In this document: piece by piece, positions 1 to 9,023 of the stretch
How the letters are laid out: the number at the start of each line of letters is the position of its first letter
Numbering within the stretch: position 1 is the stretch's first letter
The notes under the pieces: model-generated
Told to the model about the DNA's origin: nothing
Databases searched by the model: none
Seen by the model: only the letters and a program-made list of their open reading frames with translations
NCBI RefSeq assembly: GCF_900009145.1
Contig: NZ_LN889764.1
Span: 174,528-238,527 of the forward strand
Length of the DNA stretch: 64,000 nucleotides
From: Planktothrix tepida PCC 9214
GTDB taxonomy: Bacteria > Cyanobacteriota > Cyanobacteriia > Cyanobacteriales > Microcoleaceae
Direction: 5' to 3'
Position numbers and translations under genes: made by a program

Positions 1-320
1 CGACTCCACAAAGAAGGTAGTTTAAGTAAATGAGGAAATTCTTTTCTTAATATTCTTGATGATGCCCCTTTGATTCTGAACATAATTTGATGTGGAGCAA
101 TCAAAGGGTGACAACTAATAAATAAATGCACATGATCAGGCATTATCTCCAGAGCTAGGACATCACATTCTAGCTCTTTTGCTTTTTGGTAGATAATTTC
201 CTCTAATCTTCTGCTCACTCCGTTAACCAACACCCTTTTCCTCCTTTTTGGGCAAAAGACAAAATGATAGTTGATCAGACTAACTGATGTGTTTTTTCTT
301 CTATATTGATTTTCTGTCAT
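1..320 (-). CDS. tnpA: IS200-type Y1 (HUH) transposase TnpA, 3' end cut by window
   Basis: The first 106 residues of an IS200/IS605 transposase, a single-strand DNA nuclease that excises and inserts the element through a tyrosine nucleophile. The start at 320 gives MTENQYRRKNTSVSLINYHF, typical of the family. The metal-binding HUH signature is visible as DHVHLF near residue 65, followed by IKGASSRILRKEF. The catalytic tyrosine lies further on and is outside the window. The reading frame is open to base 1. It is divergent from tnpB with a 35-base gap, so both promoters must sit in or beside that gap. I see no frameshift in the visible part; whether it is active cannot be judged. Confidence 0.9.
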   Translation of the reverse strand, partial: MTENQYRRKNTSVSLINYHFVFCPKRRKRVLVNGVSRRLEEIIYQKAKELECDVLALEIMPDHVHLFISCHPLIAPHQIMFRIKGASSRILRKEFPHLLKLPSLWS

Positions 321-355
321 TGTCGATACACACGATTCATCAACCTTATGTTATC

Positions 356-1582
356 ATGGATGACATGACAAAAATAACTCGGACGATTAAATTGAAATTC
401 GTGGATCTCAACCGTTGTAAAGCTCAGGTGTTTGAGCAAATGACGGCAGAAAACACACGGGTTGCCAACAAGCTGTTGTCATTGCCGATTAAAGAACGGC
501 GTAAAATGACAACAGCTAAAATTATGTCCGAGTTAAAATCTGCCCTTGTTAACCAAGTAATCCGACATACCACATCACCCACAGGTCGTAAAACCAAACA
601 ATATAAAGTTCTTCCTGTGGAAGTTAACAACCAAAACTGGAAGTTAACCCTAAAAGGGAATACTTATTCAATTAGTTTTCCAACCCTTAAAGGTGAAAAA
701 AGAATTCCCATTGAAGTTGCATCTCCCCATTGGCAACCTGTTTTAGACGGATTGTTAGAGGGAACAATTCAAGGGGGTTCTTTTAAATTAATTAAACATC
801 GAAATAAGTGGTATGCCTATCTGTCAATTACTGAGGATGTTCCAGAAGTTAAGACGGAGAAAAGATTAGGATGTGACCGAGGACAGAATAATTTAGCGGT
901 AGTTGCACCTAAACAGGGTTTTGGTAAGTTCTTTAATGGTCAAAGCGTTAAGCATCGGAGACGTTATTTTCAACAACGAAGAAAACAACTTCAAGAAGCT
1001 AAAAAGTTTCGAGCATTAAAGAAATGGGACAAAAAAGAACGACGATGGATGGATGCAATCAATCATACAATCAGCCGTCGAATTGTTCGTTTTGCCGAAT
1101 ACCATAATGCTGATGTTGTTATTGAGGATTTAGAAGGATGTCGAAGCACAATGAAACAGAGCCAAAAATCTCGTTCTGATTCCGGTGAATCTCGACATAA
1201 TTGGTCTTATTATTCTTTGGAACAGAAACTTAATTATAAGTTGGCTCTTAAAGGATTGAAATTAATTAAAAGACCTGCGCCATACACTTCCAAATCCTGT
1301 TCAACCTGTGGTTTTATTGGTAAAAGAAATCGACATGATTTCAATTGCCCTAATGGTCACTACCATAACTCTGATTTGAATGCTGCGAAAAACCTAGCTC
1401 AATGGGACGGTTTTTCTTGTCAGTTAGACCTACAGAGAGATGCTTCTGTAATGGATTCATCCGGTTTAACTGATGGGGTGCTTGGCACACCCCTGAACTC
1501 GGTGAATACAGTCAAACAAGAGTATATTCAACTGTCTCTGCTTGACTGGACTAGATACGAGAATCCCACCCCTTTAGCGTAG
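356..1582 (+). CDS. tnpB: TnpB RNA-guided nuclease of the IS605 element
   Basis: IscB/TnpB-type protein of 408 residues from the ATG at 356 (the open frame reaches back to 287, but those residues look non-native; an ATG at 365 is also possible). RuvC catalytic residues, numbered from 356: D174 in CDRGQNN, E257 in VIEDLEG, D340 in NSDLNAAKN. A zinc-finger region CSTCG...NCPNGH precedes the last Asp; its second cysteine pair is altered to C-x3-H. TnpB proteins are guided by an omega-RNA made from the 3' end of the element and cut DNA next to a short motif, which preserves the transposon after excision. The C-terminal codons and stop lie inside the right-end hairpin. All key residues are present, so it is probably functional. 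Confidence 0.9.
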   Translation: MDDMTKITRTIKLKFVDLNRCKAQVFEQMTAENTRVANKLLSLPIKERRKMTTAKIMSELKSALVNQVIRHTTSPTGRKTKQYKVLPVEVNNQNWKLTLKGNTYSISFPTLKGEKRIPIEVASPHWQPVLDGLLEGTIQGGSFKLIKHRNKWYAYLSITEDVPEVKTEKRLGCDRGQNNLAVVAPKQGFGKFFNGQSVKHRRRYFQQRRKQLQEAKKFRALKKWDKKERRWMDAINHTISRRIVRFAEYHNADVVIEDLEGCRSTMKQSQKSRSDSGESRHNWSYYSLEQKLNYKLALKGLKLIKRPAPYTSKSCSTCGFIGKRNRHDFNCPNGHYHNSDLNAAKNLAQWDGFSCQLDLQRDASVMDSSGLTDGVLGTPLNSVNTVKQEYIQLSLLDWTRYENPTPLA

Positions 1583-1602: not shown

Positions 1603-1996
1603 CACAGATACTTTAGAACGGATTAAAAACAGTAAAGCAGTTAATCGCTATTGTAATGGTGTGGAAATTTTATATAACCAAGATGGGGGTGCAAGGTTAG
1701 GGTATACTATTTTTGGTGTTAATGGAGTTGCTTCTACTTTGACCGCATCCACTTCCAGACATTATGAACGATATCAAATTGGGAATAAATTTAGACGATT
1801 AACGCCGATAGAATATGCACGTTTAATGGGTTTTCCTGACAATTGGTGTCGAGTTGCTAAAATTTACGATCAATATGCTTTATTTGGTAATGCTGTTGTT
1901 ACCATTTGTATTGAATGGATTTGTCAAAGAATTGGGCAAAAAAATATAATAATCACACCTAAAAAATATCAACAACTCAGTTTATTTACTAGCTAA
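1603..1996 (+). pseudogene. C-terminal remnant of a DNA cytosine-5 methyltransferase, interrupted by the IS
   Basis: An open frame runs from the IS boundary to a stop at 1994-1996. It contains the last conserved motifs of C5 DNA methyltransferases: motif IX as RRLTPIEYARLMGFPD and motif X as ALFGNAVVTICIEWI, preceded by YNQDGGARLGY and a target-recognition-like stretch. The catalytic PCQ motif and SAM-binding motifs are missing and would lie left of the IS, outside the window. Although a GTG at 1661 could start a 111-residue product, nothing that short could methylate DNA. No obvious partner endonuclease is seen to the right. Confidence 0.85.
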
Positions 1997-2148: not shown

Positions 2149-3441
2149 TTAACGATAATCAGAACGTTGAATATCTCTTAATCGTGCTTCAGGACGTTTA
2201 AATCGATCTAATTGCGCTTCAAAAAATTGACGATTTGCTATCAAATGTTTGGGATTTTGATCGTCTAATGGGTACAGTAAAGCCGTGCGTAACGCTTGAA
2301 TGACCGCAGAAGTTACACAATACATTGACCGTTGAAAACTATTCGCCAACTGAATCAACATATCATCTTCACCTCGACAATATTTTTGGTAATATTCCAC
2401 TAAATAAGGAGGCAAGAAATGTAACATATCTTGCATTAATAATGTTGGGGGAATTCCCGCCGTCCCAACGGGGAAAATATCAGCATACAAAATACCATAA
2501 TGGAAGTCATTCTGATCCTCTGGAACTTGTTTTGCTTGCGCGTTATAAGATTTAGTTCCTCGGAAGGGAGCAGTCCGATAAAACACTGCTTCAACATAGG
2601 GTAATGCCGCTTCATAAAGCCACATAAATCCTTTAGATTTGGGGATAATTTCATAACATTCCCCATCAATATAAACATGATGATAAATCGGACGACCGGC
2701 GATCGCAAAAATCCCATTAACCAGAAAATTCATCGCTTCAGGAACACTGGTAATTTTGCCTTCATCATAAAGATCACTCATTTCAAAAAACACAGGCGCC
2801 ATCACTTCCCAAAACAGTCCTAAATTGCTATAATAGGACATCATTCTCACCTGTTCGATGAATAAATCTGGGAAAAGTTTATACAATCCCATCATCATCG
2901 GATTTTTCTTAAAATAAGCTTTAATGGCTCGATCTGCATTAGCTTTATATTCATCGGTATCTAAATAAGGATCAAATAATCCCCCCATATCTCGATGCCA
3001 AAGCATCGCCTGCATACAAGCTTCAGCAAACTCCATATTCACCCGATCATGCCATAAATGATGCAGTAATTTCGGCATTTTTCGGGTTTCCCCTTTTTCA
3101 ATAAAGGCTAATAATTCCGGGTGTGCTGTTGCTTCTCCTCGCCAAATTCTTAAGTCAGCATCATCTCCCGCATAATGATTATGGAGATCTAAATATTCTT
3201 GAGGAATGAAGTATTTTAAAAAGGGTAAGGGATTTAAAAACACCTGTTCGGCAATGTACAGTAAATCCCGCCAATAGAAATCCATTGGGACTGCATAAGC
3301 TTTATAAATCCCGATAATTTGCATTAAATTTTCGGGGGTATCGGGTAACATTGCACCCCCTGCTTCTAAACGGTGAATAATCTCGGAAAATTCATGGGTT
3401 GAGGGGGGTAATTTGGTTTGAGGTAAGGTTGCTGTTGTCAT
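2149..3441 (-). CDS. cupA: CO2 hydration protein CupA (ChpY) of the NDH-1MS complex
   Basis: 430-residue protein of the CupA/CupB (ChpY/ChpX) family, which couples CO2 hydration to bicarbonate with NDH-1 electron transport on the thylakoid. Recognised by long conserved blocks such as DTPENLMQIIGIYKAYAVP, RIWRGEATAHPELLAF, GRPIYHHVYIDGECYEIIP and the C-terminal RFKRPEARLRDIQ. It is the last gene of a minus-strand cluster with ndhF and ndhD homologues, the usual order ndhF3-ndhD3-cupA. CupA rather than CupB is chosen from this order and from similarity as remembered. A cupS gene, often next in line, is not seen; the region beyond is occupied by methyltransferase and IS remnants on the opposite strand. 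Confidence 0.85.
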   Translation of the reverse strand: MTTATLPQTKLPPSTHEFSEIIHRLEAGGAMLPDTPENLMQIIGIYKAYAVPMDFYWRDLLYIAEQVFLNPLPFLKYFIPQEYLDLHNHYAGDDADLRIWRGEATAHPELLAFIEKGETRKMPKLLHHLWHDRVNMEFAEACMQAMLWHRDMGGLFDPYLDTDEYKANADRAIKAYFKKNPMMMGLYKLFPDLFIEQVRMMSYYSNLGLFWEVMAPVFFEMSDLYDEGKITSVPEAMNFLVNGIFAIAGRPIYHHVYIDGECYEIIPKSKGFMWLYEAALPYVEAVFYRTAPFRGTKSYNAQAKQVPEDQNDFHYGILYADIFPVGTAGIPPTLLMQDMLHFLPPYLVEYYQKYCRGEDDMLIQLANSFQRSMYCVTSAVIQALRTALLYPLDDQNPKHLIANRQFFEAQLDRFKRPEARLRDIQRSDYR

Positions 3442-3482
3442 AATTTTTTCCTCGTTTTAATTGTTGTTAAGGGAGGATGCAG

Positions 3483-3520
3483 AAACCGGGTTTTTAAAGT
3501 CTAACTTAGGAACCCGGTTT
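3483..3520. repeat. Palindromic hairpin between ndhD3 and cupA
   Basis: Arms AAACCGGGTT (3483-3492) and AACCCGGTTT (3511-3520), a perfect 10-bp inverted repeat with an 18-base loop inside the 87-base gap. It resembles the dispersed CCGGG-type palindromes of Planktothrix-like genomes. In the transcript it could stabilise or attenuate the ndhD3-cupA junction; there is no U-run, so it is not a standard terminator. Confidence 0.6.
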
Positions 3521-3528
3521 ATAGGGGG

Positions 3529-5022
3529 TTATTGTTTAATTGCAACTTGGGTGGGAACAGCGTTATTTAAAGCAATTACCATCGATTGTGCCGTGGGTTC
3601 CATCCATCGGAATAACCAAGTTGGCTGGATACCGAGAACAAAAATTAAAGCAGCTAAAATTAAGGCTGGAGCTTGTTCAGATAAACTAACTTTCGGATAA
3701 TAAGCTAAGTTATTATCGAGTTTTCCAAAACAGGTACGGTTGAGGAGAATGACAAAATAAACAGCCGTTAAACCGGAGGCAATAATACACAATAAACTGT
3801 GAATGGGGAAGACGGCAAAAGTTCCTTGGAAGACGGGAAACTCAGCAACAAATCCGACTAAACCGGGGATACCAGCGCTCGCCATTCCTGCCATAATTAA
3901 CAAGGAACTGGTGAGGGGTAAACCTCGAATCGGGTTCATTAAACCATTGAGAATATTTAAGTCCCGGGTTCCCACTTTTTCTTCCACAACCCCAACTAAT
4001 TGGAATAGAATTGCCAGGATTAAACCGTGAGCAATCATTTGAGCAATTGCTCCAATTAAACTCAATTCATTAGCAGCAGCAGCGGCAACTAAAATATAAC
4101 CCATGTGACCAATTGAACTATAAGCCACCATGCGTTTAATATCCTGTTGAGCAATAGCCGTTAACGCTCCATATAAGACACTAATTACTCCAATGGTTGC
4201 CAGTCCAGGACTCACAATATGCCAAGCTTCAGGAAACAGTTGTAAGCCAAACCGAATTAAACCATAGGTTCCTAATTTCGCCAGAATTCCGCCTAATAAA
4301 ATTGTGACGGGAGGAGAAGATTCAACATAGGCATCGGGCAACCAAGTATGCAGGGGAACTAAAGGAATTTTGATCCCAAAACCTAAGAGTAAAACCGTGA
4401 TTAAAATTAATTGAGTGTTTAATGCAAAGTCCTGGGTTTTAATTGCAGCATAATCAAAACTTCCGGCATTACTGAGCCACGCCATTCCTAAAAATCCTGC
4501 TAGAATCAGAATCCCTGAAAGGGCAGTATAAATCAGAAATTTCATCCCCGCATAGGCGCGTTTTTCGCTGCCCCAAATGCTAATTAACAGGTAAACGGGA
4601 ATCAGTTCAAGTTCATAAAATAGAACAAACAGCAGTAAATTCTCAGATAAAAAGGCTCCGGCTATGCCTGCATTGACTAAGAGAATCATGGAATAATAAA
4701 GGCGCGGACGGTCAATTTCTCCGTGACTGCTGGAAATCGCAATTAAAGTTAATAAACCACTTAACCCAATTAAGGGAAAGGATAAACCATCGATACCTAA
4801 ACTATAAGATAATCCTAATTGTGGAATCCAATCCAGATATTCTTGGAGTTGAAAATTAGGATTAGTTAAATCAAAATCAAAGGTGAGTTTTGCTGTCCAC
4901 GCTAAAATGATAGTGGTAATCACTAAGGCAATGGAACGAACTTGCTGGGCTGAAAATTGTTTAGGCAATAGTCCTATTAACAGGACTCCCAAAACTGGAA
5001 TAATAATTAAAGCACTCAACAT
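3529..5022 (-). CDS. ndhD3: NAD(P)H-quinone oxidoreductase subunit 4 (NdhD3 type)
   Basis: 497-residue membrane subunit of NDH-1, a Mrp/complex-I antiporter-like proton channel with about 14 hydrophobic segments. Family signatures include ELELIPVYLLISIWG with the membrane Glu, LPDAYVESSPPVTILLGGILAK-type helix 7-8 sequence, and DIKRMVAYSSIGHMGYI. The D3 assignment rests on its place between ndhF3 and cupA, which marks the inducible CO2-uptake complex NDH-1MS rather than the respiratory NdhD1/D2 form. It lies 217 bases downstream of the second carbonic anhydrase gene, a gap long enough for its own promoter although no clear elements were recognised. Confidence 0.85.
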   Translation of the reverse strand: MLSALIIIPVLGVLLIGLLPKQFSAQQVRSIALVITTIILAWTAKLTFDFDLTNPNFQLQEYLDWIPQLGLSYSLGIDGLSFPLIGLSGLLTLIAISSSHGEIDRPRLYYSMILLVNAGIAGAFLSENLLLFVLFYELELIPVYLLISIWGSEKRAYAGMKFLIYTALSGILILAGFLGMAWLSNAGSFDYAAIKTQDFALNTQLILITVLLLGFGIKIPLVPLHTWLPDAYVESSPPVTILLGGILAKLGTYGLIRFGLQLFPEAWHIVSPGLATIGVISVLYGALTAIAQQDIKRMVAYSSIGHMGYILVAAAAANELSLIGAIAQMIAHGLILAILFQLVGVVEEKVGTRDLNILNGLMNPIRGLPLTSSLLIMAGMASAGIPGLVGFVAEFPVFQGTFAVFPIHSLLCIIASGLTAVYFVILLNRTCFGKLDNNLAYYPKVSLSEQAPALILAALIFVLGIQPTWLFRWMEPTAQSMVIALNNAVPTQVAIKQ

Positions 5023-5239
5023 AAGCTTAGGGTATGAGGATGAGGGGTAATCTCAGCAATATTCAAGTTAACCCAAAAGTAGGTTTTAAAGTCTGTTTTC
5101 AAACTTTATTCATCATAACTTACCCAGTTTAAAAAGAGTAAAATTATGAATTTTAAAGTTTTAATCAAGGGGATAAAAATGATTTATCAAAATCTAATTA
5201 CTTACATTTTGATGTCGCATTTCTATTTTAACAACGGTT

Positions 5240-5962
5240 TTAGGTAATCAGTTTAACTTTTCCAGTTTCTAATTCATAAAATCCCCCAACAACTTTTAAT
5301 TCATCATTGGCAATTAATTGAGCAATAACCGGAGAAGAGTTTAATTTTTTGATTTGTAGTTTAACATTGGCAGTGACCGCTTCTTCCCAAGTTGGTTTGC
5401 CTTTAATGGAAGGTTTAATGGCATCAATAATACTGCCAATTTTACCCGGAACGGAATTTCCGTCCAGAGTAGCTTTAACGGCTCCACATTTTTGATGACC
5501 TAAAATCATAATTGTTTTAATTCCTAATTCTAAAACCCCAAATTCCAAACTACCCATTTCTTCAGAAGTGACAACATTTCCCGCATTACGAACCACAAAA
5601 ATATCGCCTAAACCTTGATCAAAAATAATCTCGGCTGATACTCTGGAGTCAGCACACCCTAAAATAGCGGCAAAGGGTTTTTGACCTGCGGCAACTTCCT
5701 TAATTCGTTCCCGATTTTGGTTAGGATGTTTTTGTTTATTTTCCATAAACCGTTCATTTCCTAACATTAAGGTTTCTAATGCTATTTCAGGGGTGATTTC
5801 TGGGGTTTCACAACTCGAAGTTTCAGCGACAATTTTCTTTTTTTCTCGGTCTAAAACTTTTGTTGTAATTCCAGCCGTTAATAAGGCTGTTCCCACAATG
5901 CAAACTCCATATTGTAATAAATCACGGCGGGTATAATTGGGTGTATTGTAATCTGGGGTCAT
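5240..5962 (-). CDS. Tat-exported beta-carbonic anhydrase (copy 2)
   Basis: 240-residue beta-class carbonic anhydrase, interconverting CO2 and bicarbonate. The zinc ligand and catalytic dyad motif C103-x-D105-x-R107 (GCADSR) and H156-x2-C159 (GHQKCG) are intact. The N-terminus has a twin-arginine motif T-R12-R13-D-L-L followed by a hydrophobic stretch, so export as a folded metalloenzyme to the periplasm or thylakoid lumen is expected. It is a tandem paralogue of the next gene upstream (93-base gap), sharing most of the catalytic core, but its signal segment differs. Placement between ndhF3 and ndhD3 links it to CO2 uptake. A known analogue is EcaB of Synechocystis, reported to associate with Cup proteins. 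Confidence 0.9.
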   Translation of the reverse strand: MTPDYNTPNYTRRDLLQYGVCIVGTALLTAGITTKVLDREKKKIVAETSSCETPEITPEIALETLMLGNERFMENKQKHPNQNRERIKEVAAGQKPFAAILGCADSRVSAEIIFDQGLGDIFVVRNAGNVVTSEEMGSLEFGVLELGIKTIMILGHQKCGAVKATLDGNSVPGKIGSIIDAIKPSIKGKPTWEEAVTANVKLQIKKLNSSPVIAQLIANDELKVVGGFYELETGKVKLIT

Positions 5963-6055
5963 GTTGTCCTCCCGGGTTTATGGCATTGAAACTGTTCAAA
6001 AAGCAAGTTTATCTTTGATGCAATGGAATTAATTATAAACTTGCTTGAGACAGCT

Positions 6056-6760
6056 TTATGCAACCACTTTTACCATTCCCGTATCCAGGTCATAGTAACC
6101 TCCGACTATTTTTAATTTACCCTCTTTGATTAATTGGGAAATTACCGGAGAAGCTTTTAAACGACCCATTCCTGATTTGACATTAGAAATGATGTTTTCT
6201 TCTAAGGTTTGATTCATCTTAATGGCAGGTTTAATCACGTCTATAATACTGCCAATTTGACCGGGAACTGCTTTTCCATCAATGGTTGCTTTCACCGCCC
6301 CACAATTTTTATGTCCAATCACCATCAGAACTTTTGCTCCTAACACTAATGTTCCAAATTCTAAGCTGCCAATTTCTTCAGGTGTAGCAATATTTCCCGC
6401 ATTTCTAACCACGAATAAATCTCCAAACCCTTGATCAAAAATAATCTCTGAAGGAACTCGTGAATCTGCACAACTGAGAATGGCGGCAAAGGGGGTTTGT
6501 CCTTGGGCAACTTCTTGAATTCTTGCCATACTTTGATTCGGATTTTTGCGTTTGTTTTCAACAAACCGCTTGTTTCCGTCTAACAGTTGGTTTAAGGCTT
6601 CATCAGGGGTAATATTATTCCCAGCAATCGCAGGTTTCTGTTTTAACCAATTAGCTTTTGTGCCTAACCCGACGGTTAAAGCAGCAGTTCCCGCAGCCGC
6701 AGCCCCAAATTTTAATAAATTCCGACGAGAGACGTTGAGATTGTTTTGAATTCCGCTCAT
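6056..6760 (-). CDS. Tat-exported beta-carbonic anhydrase (copy 1)
   Basis: 234-residue beta-carbonic anhydrase with intact C97-x-D99-x-R101 (SCADSR) and H150-x2-C153 (GHKNCG). The N-terminus carries a textbook Tat signal, S-R12-R13-N-L-L-K-F followed by an alanine/glycine-rich hydrophobic segment. It starts 53 bases after the ndhF3 stop and is followed after 93 bases by its paralogue, so it is very likely co-transcribed with ndhF3. The two enzymes match closely from TPDEALNQLL-like sequence to the C-terminus (GKLKIVGGYYDLDTG here, DELKVVGGFYELETG in copy 2), indicating tandem duplication followed by divergence. Possible roles are CO2 recapture or supply of substrate for the NDH-1MS/CupA hydration site. 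Confidence 0.92.
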   Translation of the reverse strand: MSGIQNNLNVSRRNLLKFGAAAAGTAALTVGLGTKANWLKQKPAIAGNNITPDEALNQLLDGNKRFVENKRKNPNQSMARIQEVAQGQTPFAAILSCADSRVPSEIIFDQGFGDLFVVRNAGNIATPEEIGSLEFGTLVLGAKVLMVIGHKNCGAVKATIDGKAVPGQIGSIIDVIKPAIKMNQTLEENIISNVKSGMGRLKASPVISQLIKEGKLKIVGGYYDLDTGMVKVVA

Positions 6761-6813
6761 AATTTCCTCACACTTAATTCAAGGTTTAAACATCTAGCAA
6801 AAGAATGCTATTT

Positions 6814-8649
6814 TTAAAACATATTTAGGGAAAAGAACCCTAATAATAAAGTGACTCCGACAATAATCGTCAGGGCATAAAATTGGGTTTGGCCAGAAAC
6901 GTTATATTTCAAACTTTGCCCGCTAAAAACTGTTGCAAGTCCCACCAAATTTACAAAGCCATCCACGATATAGCGGTCAATCCAATACATGATATTGGAG
7001 ATGAGTCCCACGATAAAAATAATCGTGACTCGATATAGTTTTGCCGTGTAAAAATCGTAAGCAAAAAAGTCTTGTAACGTTTGGGAGGGAAGCTTAACAG
7101 GCTTTGGCCAATTACTATTCAGATAAATTAACCCACTAAACCCACATCCGACCAAGGTTGAAGCAGTTAATAATCCAGCAACGGTGAGATTAATGTCTTC
7201 TCCTAGGGGTAACAAATTCCACTGTTTTAATAATAAGGGAATATGCAAACAAAATCCCGCTAAAATTGTCATGGGTAATACCATCGCCCATAACACTTCC
7301 GGGGAACGGGTGGTCATTTGTTTCGGTTTTCCAGCAAACAGTAACCCAAATTCACGGGTTAAACTAAAAGCTGTTAAACCATTCACTAAAAACAAGCAAA
7401 ATGCAATCGCAGGTTCATTTTCCCAAAGGGTTTCTGCTAACTCTAATATTGTCCAAAAGCCACCAAAGGGAGGAACGGCAATTAACGCCGCCATTCCCGC
7501 TAAAAAACACAATCCTGAAATCGGACGTCGTGACCACAATCCCCCATATTGAGTTAAATCTTGAGTGATATTATTGCTAATAATTCCCCCCGTGGTCATG
7601 ACTAATAAAGCCATTGGAAAAGCATAAGTTAATAACAGAGAAAGAGCCGTTTGAGTTTGTCCTGTTCCCACTGCAATAAAGGTGATGCCCATATAGGTAC
7701 TCACGGAATAGGAAAGGGAGCGTTTAATATCAATTTGAGCAATGGCAATACAACTGGCTCCCACAGCCGTTGCCAACCCAATAAACACCGCCGTTGACAT
7801 TACAAAAGGAGACAAAGCAATAACAGGTTGCATTTTGACTAAGACCCAAGCCCCAACTGCAACGACAACGGAATTGCGTAAAATCGTACTGGGAAGGGGG
7901 CCTTCCATCGCTTCATCTAACCATAAATGCAGGGGAAATTGAGCGCATTTTCCCAATGGCCCTGCTAATAATGCTAACCCTAATAAGGTGGCAACGTTCG
8001 GGTCAATTTGAGCCGTTTGTGACCATTGAGCTAATTCTGTAAAATCCCAAGTTCCAGCGAGGGGAAATAGGGCGACCACTCCCATTAATAGGAATAAATC
8101 TCCGACCCGTTTGGTTAAAAAGGCGTCTCTAGCCCCTGTTACTACTAAGGGTTGGTTAAACCATAACCCGACTAATAAATAGGTTCCCAGGGTGAGAATT
8201 TCCAAAATAATGTAACTGTAGAATAGGGAGTTACACAGCACTAATCCACATAACCCCGCTTCAAATAAAGCTAAAAGCGAATAAAACCTCGCCCACCCCC
8301 AGTCCATTTCCATGTAACCGATGGCGTAAATTTGGGCCAATAAATTTAACCCAGTAATCACTAAGGTGGCGCCAATGGTGACAACGGAGACTTCTAAGGG
8401 AATTGATAAATTGAGGTCAACGATGCTAAACCAAGGAATAATCAACCGTTGGGGGGGATGACCCCAAATTTCCGTGAGGGCGACTAACCCATGCACAAAG
8501 GCGAATAAGGAGGTGATGATATTGACATATCCAGCCGGACGGGGGCCAGTGCGTCGAATAATAGAGGGAAACCAGAGGGTAGATAATAATGCTCCGATTA
8601 ATGGGTAGCACGGTATCCACCAAATGGTCTTTAGAAAAAAATCAGCCAT
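6814..8649 (-). CDS. ndhF3: NAD(P)H-quinone oxidoreductase subunit 5 (NdhF3 type)
   Basis: 611-residue antiporter-like NDH-1 subunit, the distal proton-pumping arm protein. Seen: about 15 hydrophobic segments, the conserved LHLWLDEAMEGPLPSTILR-type helix, DIKRSLSYSVSTYMGITF, and a C-terminal hydrophobic anchor after an amphipathic stretch. Length fits NdhF3 (about 610-620 residues) and is shorter than respiratory NdhF1. It is first of the minus-strand cluster ndhF3, two carbonic anhydrases, ndhD3, cupA. NdhF3/NdhD3/CupA define the low-CO2-induced high-affinity CO2 uptake complex. A candidate LysR-type operator lies about 170 bases upstream of the start. Confidence 0.88.
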   Translation of the reverse strand: MADFFLKTIWWIPCYPLIGALLSTLWFPSIIRRTGPRPAGYVNIITSLFAFVHGLVALTEIWGHPPQRLIIPWFSIVDLNLSIPLEVSVVTIGATLVITGLNLLAQIYAIGYMEMDWGWARFYSLLALFEAGLCGLVLCNSLFYSYIILEILTLGTYLLVGLWFNQPLVVTGARDAFLTKRVGDLFLLMGVVALFPLAGTWDFTELAQWSQTAQIDPNVATLLGLALLAGPLGKCAQFPLHLWLDEAMEGPLPSTILRNSVVVAVGAWVLVKMQPVIALSPFVMSTAVFIGLATAVGASCIAIAQIDIKRSLSYSVSTYMGITFIAVGTGQTQTALSLLLTYAFPMALLVMTTGGIISNNITQDLTQYGGLWSRRPISGLCFLAGMAALIAVPPFGGFWTILELAETLWENEPAIAFCLFLVNGLTAFSLTREFGLLFAGKPKQMTTRSPEVLWAMVLPMTILAGFCLHIPLLLKQWNLLPLGEDINLTVAGLLTASTLVGCGFSGLIYLNSNWPKPVKLPSQTLQDFFAYDFYTAKLYRVTIIFIVGLISNIMYWIDRYIVDGFVNLVGLATVFSGQSLKYNVSGQTQFYALTIIVGVTLLLGFFSLNMF

Positions 8650-9023
8650 TGGTGTGACCTATTGATCAGTTTGCAAAAAGATTAAAAATGGAGTAAACCC
8701 TTACTCCTGGGGCTTTGTAGCTTTTTGGAGTTTCATCGACCCCGGAAGACCACATAGATTTTTTGCTGTTGAATACAAACATACCATAGATATTAGTATA
8801 TAGATAGTCCTAAAGGTATATCAATATAAGAGATATTTCTCATCTTATTAATAAAGTTTGATTATATAAGCACAAATACTTAACAAAGCATCTTTTTTAG
8901 AAGCCAGAAATGAATCATCAGTTTGATAGGAAGAGAGTCAAGAAATAATACAAAATAGTAGCTTTTGGTCAGGTTGTATTAAAATAATTTTGGTATTTTT
9001 GTATATAAAAAATCCAGATCAAA
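8650..9023. other. Divergent control region between ndhF3 and the GST gene
   Basis: A 374-base AT-rich stretch without a credible gene. It must carry the ndhF3 promoter (minus) and the GST promoter (plus). The most structured site is the inverted repeat at 8818-8836, described separately. No RNA gene was recognised. Confidence 0.6.
8818..8836. promoter_or_regulatory. Candidate LysR-type operator upstream of ndhF3
   Basis: ATATC, nine bases, GATAT: a perfect 5-bp inverted repeat that includes the T-N11-A geometry of LysR-family sites. NDH-1MS operons in cyanobacteria are known to be controlled by the LysR regulator NdhR/CcmR, so position and architecture agree. The exact base match to an NdhR consensus was not tested, and AT-rich DNA produces such repeats by chance. 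Confidence 0.35.

Follow-up and report, generated by a model that had tools for sequence, protein, structure and literature searches.

Within a 64,000-nucleotide stretch of the Planktothrix tepida PCC 9214 genome (contig NZ_LN889764.1, positions 174,528 to 238,527; hereafter the window), the genes ndhF3, ndhD3 and cupA are neighbors on one strand and form the core of an operon for the low-CO2 complex NDH-1MS (NDH-1_3). Between ndhF3 and ndhD3 lie two genes for exported-type β-carbonic anhydrases (CAs), CA1 and CA2, of the type of EcaB (Slr0051) from Synechocystis sp. PCC 6803. Open reading frames (ORFs) and profile matches confirm what a preliminary description of the sequence had stated, namely the order ndhF3-CA1-CA2-ndhD3-cupA on the minus strand with gaps of 53, 93, 217 and 87 bases (Table 1). 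The NDH-1MS operon of Synechocystis PCC 6803 is given as ndhF3-ndhD3-cupA-cupS-cupAR (PMC11456788). The same three core genes occur in the same order in the window, but here CA genes separate ndhF3 from ndhD3 and a cupS-like gene lies outside the operon on the other strand. Since the identical order was found in other genera and families, chance is excluded as the source of the observation.

Table 1. Features of the NDH-1MS locus, in window coordinates
Feature	Positions	Strand	Length	Evidence and remarks
Conserved block upstream of ndhF3, CATATACTAATATCTATGGTAT...	8766-8803	minus		Exact in 4 of 5 aligned Planktothrix, near in the fifth; candidate promoter or regulator site
ndhF3	8649-6814	minus	611 residues	TIGR01960, 947 bits; NF005633, 962 bits
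CA1, Tat-type exported β-CA of the EcaB-type clade	6760-6056	minus	234 residues	PF00484, E 1.9e-36; TAT_signal above cut-off; tree; signal ends in AIA (cleavage motif)
Hairpin AGCAAGTTTAT...ATAAACTTGCT directly 3' of CA1	6002-6045	minus		AT-rich; pattern and alignment; fold of 5985-6056, z -3.6
CA2, Planktothrix duplicate of CA1 with twin-arginine motif, perhaps membrane-anchored	5962-5240	minus	240 residues	PF00484, E 1.6e-39; tree; signal without AxA/VxA cleavage motif; AlphaFold model
Block before ndhD3	5099-5124	minus	26 bases	Confined to those Planktothrix that have CA2 or a CA2 remnant; could be an internal promoter or a regulatory site
ndhD3, proton-pumping subunit of NDH-1MS	5022-3529	minus	497 residues	NF005611, 846 bits
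cupA (chpY), CO2 hydration protein	3441-2149	minus	430 residues	CupA/ChpXY TIGR01964, 782 bits

Both CA1 and CA2 score above the profile cut-off of the β-CA family, and the zinc motifs CADSR and HxxCG are intact in each, as had been described. The two proteins are 56% identical. The AlphaFold model of CA2 (mean predicted local distance difference test score, pLDDT, 79.5, with residues 1-52 nearly all below 50) has a β-CA fold, and its nearest Foldseek match is 2a5v (TM 0.74 by query length, 41% identity). This is the β-CA Rv3588c of Mycobacterium tuberculosis, which is also the closest solved structure by sequence (CA1, 1.2e-32); we know of no membrane-complex operon that contains it. The carboxysomal β-CA CcaA shares family and fold, and 5swc is among the Foldseek matches of the CA2 model, but the sequence match of CA1 to 5swc reaches only 1e-13, and CcaA is not known to have an export signal.

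Twin-arginine signals had been claimed for both proteins. A twin-arginine motif is indeed found in each (SRRNLLKFG in CA1, TRRDLLQYG in CA2), and CA1 exceeds the Pfam and NCBIfam cut-offs for signals of the twin-arginine translocation (Tat) pathway. CA2 matches neither of these two models, so that in its case it is the motif that points to Tat export. The twin arginines and both zinc motifs recur in 44 of 44 operon CAs compared. An [AV]xA motif, which would mark signal cleavage, follows the hydrophobic stretch in 9 of 9 full-length Planktothrix CA1 proteins (the truncated CA1 of G006 is not among these; G, L and C numbers are our handles for genomes, loci and contigs), in 22 of 31 other operon CAs, and in none of the five CA2 proteins. 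The stretch in CA2 is more hydrophobic than that of CA1 (1.84 vs 1.46) and is followed by KKK. Having a signal without cleavage motif, CA2 is perhaps membrane-anchored. The missing motif is by itself weak evidence, because the nine misses among the other operon CAs include all four rows of genus g46, which is probably Microcystis.

The distribution of the arrangement was examined in a first comparison of 59 genomes, the window's own included, with the neighborhoods of 40 CA loci, and in a phylum-wide sample of 386 genomes of at least 90% completeness that was searched for NdhF3 and with a CA model. Among the rows listed, 118 NdhF3 best matches were joined to the CA matches by coordinates. CA matches were listed down to an E-value of about 3e-35, and the class of genomes without a CA thus includes G321 (E 4.8e-32) and G053, in which a truncated CA follows ndhF3. 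The lowest NdhF3 best matches (about 700-720 bits) overlap the scores of NdhF4, and all of those are negatives. In at least 33 of the 118 NdhF3-bearing genomes, the window's included, a CA gene lies directly downstream of ndhF3 on the same strand; these positives span 17 genera and 6 families. On these counts we rejected the idea of an arrangement peculiar to one genome, and the earlier claim that an exported-type CA gene is linked to CO2-uptake genes is borne out and widened. As to the remaining NdhF3 genomes among the matches listed, two have a CA beside ndhF3 in another way, 29 have one elsewhere only and 54 have none listed; a CA lies upstream of ndhF3 in G265 and divergent from it in G117. 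By family, again among the matches listed, the positives are 9 of 11 genomes in the window's own family, 9 of 13 in the Synechocystis/Rippkaea family and 12 of 41 in the Nostoc family, and three further families contribute one genome each.

Neighborhoods were read for 31 of the 33 positives, G140 and G269 being the other two, and in all 31 the order ndhF3, CA, ndhD3 holds on one strand. The gene cupA is present in 30 of them, the contig of G123 ending inside ndhD3. The synteny comparison with relatives that had been proposed thus finds this order recurring across genera and families. Carriers include Rippkaea orientalis PCC 8801 (G183), Nostoc sphaeroides (G112), Desmonostoc vinosum, Nostoc calcicola, Gomphosphaeria aponina and G344, probably a Microcystis. 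No CA was found within 10 kb of any of 32 presumed NdhF4 genes among the matches listed, 21 of which belong to genomes with a CA match; the NdhF4 label is presumed from rank and 53-55% identity. A junction CA as a mark of both NDH-1 CO2-uptake complexes was rejected on this result. A tblastn search of CA1 against plasmids gave 527 records, all below 60% identity, and the named ones came from other bacteria.

The CA tree has 101 rows, 96 cyanobacterial CAs and 5 outgroup sequences; like the neighborhood set, the NdhF3 tree and the distance-correlation set discussed below, it is a chosen sample and not a random one. All 44 operon-labelled rows fall in one 60-row clade (support 99/99) together with L045, which was labelled as lying elsewhere only because a contig end cuts its ndhF3. 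A further 14 CAs of the clade are encoded away from ndhF3, and one lies immediately upstream of it. The rows leave out L139 (an operon CA with SRR and CADSR), L053 (in-frame stop) and L075, L077 and L080 (identical copies of other loci); L076 and L136 are the same CA and both are counted. Evolutionary distances of CA and NdhF3 are correlated over 36 operons (r 0.86, with 0 of 999 permutations as high), so the two share descent; over the same operons the value is 0.96 for NdhF3 and NdhD3 and 0.64 for CA and CupA. CAs of a different exported clade were seen downstream of cupA in Aphanothece (L085, 8001) and divergent from ndhF3 in G117 (L154, 1942), which may point to re-recruitment, though chance could also explain it.

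Inside the operon-CA clade lies the exported CA of Synechocystis PCC 7338 (G119, L181), the single such CA found in that genome and 53% identical to CA1. The operon CAs and this Synechocystis enzyme have a common descent, and EcaB and the operon CA would, on this tree evidence, be one family; Slr0051 itself stood outside the comparison. Like CA1 and CA2, EcaB is an exported β-CA with a twin-arginine signal (PMC11360081), and a link to NDH-1_3/4 has been reported (PMC11360081, PMC10096703). An exported CA was found in four of five genomes of the genus Synechocystis. The preliminary description had EcaB encoded away from the operon; this holds for PCC 7338 and PCC 6714 (G422), in which the gene has the same flanking genes, but in G123 the CA stands behind ndhF3, as it does, doubled, in the window. 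In G041 the exported CA lies upstream of genes of the SbtA, P-II and Na+/H+ exchanger families (L055, 7231-3056).

A CA or part of one follows ndhF3 in all 10 Planktothrix genomes. Both copies are present in five (the window's, G002, G004, G007, G008), CA1 with a 33-residue piece of CA2 in G005, CA1 alone in G001, G003 and G009, and a truncated CA1 alone in G006, so that CA2 is absent or a remnant in five of the nine relatives. CA1 and CA2 are sister groups (100/94), each copy group being supported as well, and the tree indicates a single duplication before the split of the sampled Planktothrix. The CA2 stem is long (0.48 vs 0.076 for CA1). In the five tandem genomes the ratio of nonsynonymous to synonymous substitution rates (dN/dS) is 0.14 for CA1, 0.20 for CA2 and 0.085 for NdhF3, values that indicate purifying selection on both copies. 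CA2 as a dead copy was rejected on its dN/dS in these genomes and on its predicted fold. The tandem alone is peculiar to the Planktothrix line.

We infer a single mRNA through all five genes, though the conserved hairpin behind CA1 warns against presuming that it is even. The hairpin occurs in 10 of 10 Planktothrix, whether ndhD3 or CA2 comes next, with exact arms in eight and one G-U pair in two. Folding of six stretches, one of them the CA2-ndhD3 gap, gave z-scores of -2.4 to -4.5. A T run follows the hairpin in only 4 of the 10 genomes, which argues against a uniform terminator, and a processing or stability site is rather suggested. Together with the 26-base block, the hairpin could give unequal expression of the genes. 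A scan of the region for promoters (24 found vs 20.0 expected) led no further, and one for terminators found no excess (6 vs 7.6 expected).

The cupS-like gene, a fasciclin-type ORF of 133 residues, lies beyond cupA on the opposite strand, outside the left edge of the window by about 1 kb. The same placement 3' of cupA was found in 8 of 9 Planktothrix relatives, the stretch of the ninth being without cupA, and was noted at loci L035-L042, L044, L050, L147, L156 and L162. A TnpB gene (287-1582, plus strand) separates two pieces of a C5-cytosine methylase (L195 2353-2850, to the left of the window, profile 118-182; window 1661-1996, profile 269-323), and a TnpA-like ORF on the other strand was seen by eye. 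An IS200/IS605-type insertion thus appears to lie between cupA and the cupS-like gene. In the whole genome the profile search gave four Pro_CA genes above cut-off. The two outside the operon are 2.4 kb apart on another contig (C57), have no twin-arginine signal and score low against the CA model. Near them (L001, L002) stand a gene of the SbtA family and, in tandem, two P-II family genes that are sbtB-like by position; this neighborhood is a second link of CA genes to inorganic-carbon uptake in this genome.

A mechanism for the operon CAs should account for their export signals, their place beside ndhF3 and what is known of the complex. EcaB of PCC 6803 carries a twin-arginine signal and is described as residing mostly in thylakoids and partly at the plasma membrane, and as linked to NDH-1_3/4 (PMC11360081); a thylakoid location and the same link are also reported in PMC10096703. 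CupA sits on the cytoplasmic face, and NdhF3 contains a non-polar tunnel that opens on the luminal side and reaches the Zn site (PMC6981117). According to a review, the CO2 that is rehydrated may stem from HCO3- in the acid lumen, an idea said to rest 'solely' on structural data (PMC13249358, section 14). A Tat-signal CA whose gene is next to that of NdhF3 fits a lumenal partner. In view of this we suggest that CA1 and CA2 are EcaB-type enzymes that serve NDH-1MS at the lumenal mouth of the NdhF3 channel, a proposal to which we give an even chance of being right. The mature enzyme would be located on the lumenal side of the thylakoid membrane and would speed the interconversion of HCO3- and H+ with CO2 near the channel mouth. 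CO2 formed in the acid lumen could then pass to CupA and be recovered as cytoplasmic HCO3-. Of the pair, CA1 would be soluble and CA2 a membrane-anchored duplicate. CAH3, the thylakoid-lumen CA of Chlamydomonas, is of the alpha class and is not known to be encoded with an NDH complex; by analogy it would play the same part, supplying CO2 from HCO3- in the lumen.

Several observations weigh against this proposal. Among the matches listed, 83 of the 118 sampled NdhF3 genomes have the CA elsewhere or not at all, and it is also lost in place, since G006, G028, G053 and Aphanothece CMT-3BRIN retain a truncated CA at the junction. On the NdhF3 tree (59 chosen rows) the rows with the CA cluster no more than shuffled labels do (17 changes against a shuffled mean of 17.0; 13 changes when remnants count as presence), indicating frequent gain and loss. 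Being absent from the junction in most sampled genomes, patchy on the tree and truncated in place, the CA is dispensable. The correlation of CA and NdhF3 distances shows shared descent, which a partnership predicts but which does not prove it, and it is lower than that of NdhF3 with NdhD3. EcaB was found in the periplasm as well (PMC11360081). A reported interaction of EcaB with CupA/B (PMC10096703) misfits a lumenal EcaB, given that CupA is on the cytoplasmic face (PMC6981117). At raised CO2, ecaB of Microcystis PCC 7806 stayed constant and, among the CO2-uptake genes, only ndhF3 fell slightly (PMC4419860), and in thermophiles ecaB is called 'scattered' (PMC9120777). Finally, the gene upstream of sbtA in G041 would fit a periplasmic role, since SbtA is a plasma-membrane bicarbonate transporter.

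Some of these points lead to a different explanation, in which an ordinary periplasmic CA shares the low-CO2 promoter of ndhF3 for regulatory convenience and does no work with NDH-1MS. The periplasmic finding for EcaB, the G041 gene for the same CA type, which lies upstream of sbtA and of a P-II family gene, and the two CAs without twin-arginine signal near sbtA on C57 all agree with it. If convenience were the cause, however, the constancy of the position between ndhF3 and ndhD3 and the absence of CAs around the listed presumed NdhF4 genes would be harder to understand. Nor do the in-clade CAs away from ndhF3 have a general neighborhood of their own: of the 14 taken, 13 had flanks, unannotated except in L055, and only two related Xenococcaceae share flanking genes. 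We regard this explanation as rather unlikely. A lumenal CA could also act at photosystem II or as a pH/HCO3- buffer of the thylakoid lumen, with common low-CO2 induction as the only reason for the linkage. Lumenal CAs acting at photosystem II are known in algae. The thylakoid location of EcaB (PMC10096703) would suit such a function. Yet the linkage is specifically to NDH-1_3 genes and not to the listed presumed NdhF4 genes (linkage to photosystem II genes was not searched for), and a role of this kind seems unlikely.

The other two explanations concern the tandem and the origin of the junction. The preliminary description proposed that the duplicates divide their labor between thylakoid lumen and periplasm. 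Two conserved copies under purifying selection would be expected of such a split, but CA2 evolves faster and is missing or reduced in most of the relatives, and the visible difference between the signals concerns cleavage, with nothing in the sequences read that indicates a choice between two membranes. The proposal is therefore unsupported and we consider it very unlikely; a soluble and an anchored enzyme fit the difference between CA1 and CA2 better, CA2 being the copy without a cleavage motif. A chance insertion passed on by descent would explain why most sampled genomes have no CA at the junction and why its presence is patchy. That explanation is hardly credible when the same junction is occupied in six families and in both halves of the NdhF3 tree, when remnants mark losses in place, and when CAs of another clade stand beside the same genes in L085 and L154.

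In the best reading of the data, NDH-1MS commonly has an EcaB-type CA as an accessory, one that it can do without. A wider version of the proposed lumenal role, possible but somewhat doubtful, is that a dedicated lumenal CA belongs to NDH-1MS as a module that recurs across several families. It would form a CO2-salvage loop across the thylakoid membrane, in which bicarbonate leaked into the acid lumen is converted to CO2 where it can enter the NdhF3 channel and is then recovered by CupA, with Planktothrix having both a soluble and an anchored enzyme.

Nowhere in the literature searched, which did not extend to gene-map figures or to most subscription papers, was a CA gene said to lie among the ndhF3 genes; ecaB of Microcystis is identified by its locus tag, MAE15130 (PMC4681089). 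It should be apparent from annotated genomes, and a mention of it may exist. The CO2 that CupA uses might come from the cytoplasm or from the thylakoid lumen, and in the 2026 review cited above (PMC13249358, section 14) the case for the lumen is a structural one. If the enzyme is lumenal, a Tat-signal CA whose gene sits between those of two membrane subunits, and recurs there in several families, would be independent genomic evidence for the lumen side. EcaB, which has been studied in Synechocystis with its gene away from the operon, is thereby recast as a likely accessory of NDH-1MS. Rippkaea orientalis PCC 8801, Nostoc sphaeroides, Planktothrix and probably Microcystis are candidate strains for testing a lumenal CO2 source, and the recurrence of the arrangement makes it possible to test whether the CO2-uptake complex receives CO2 from across the membrane.

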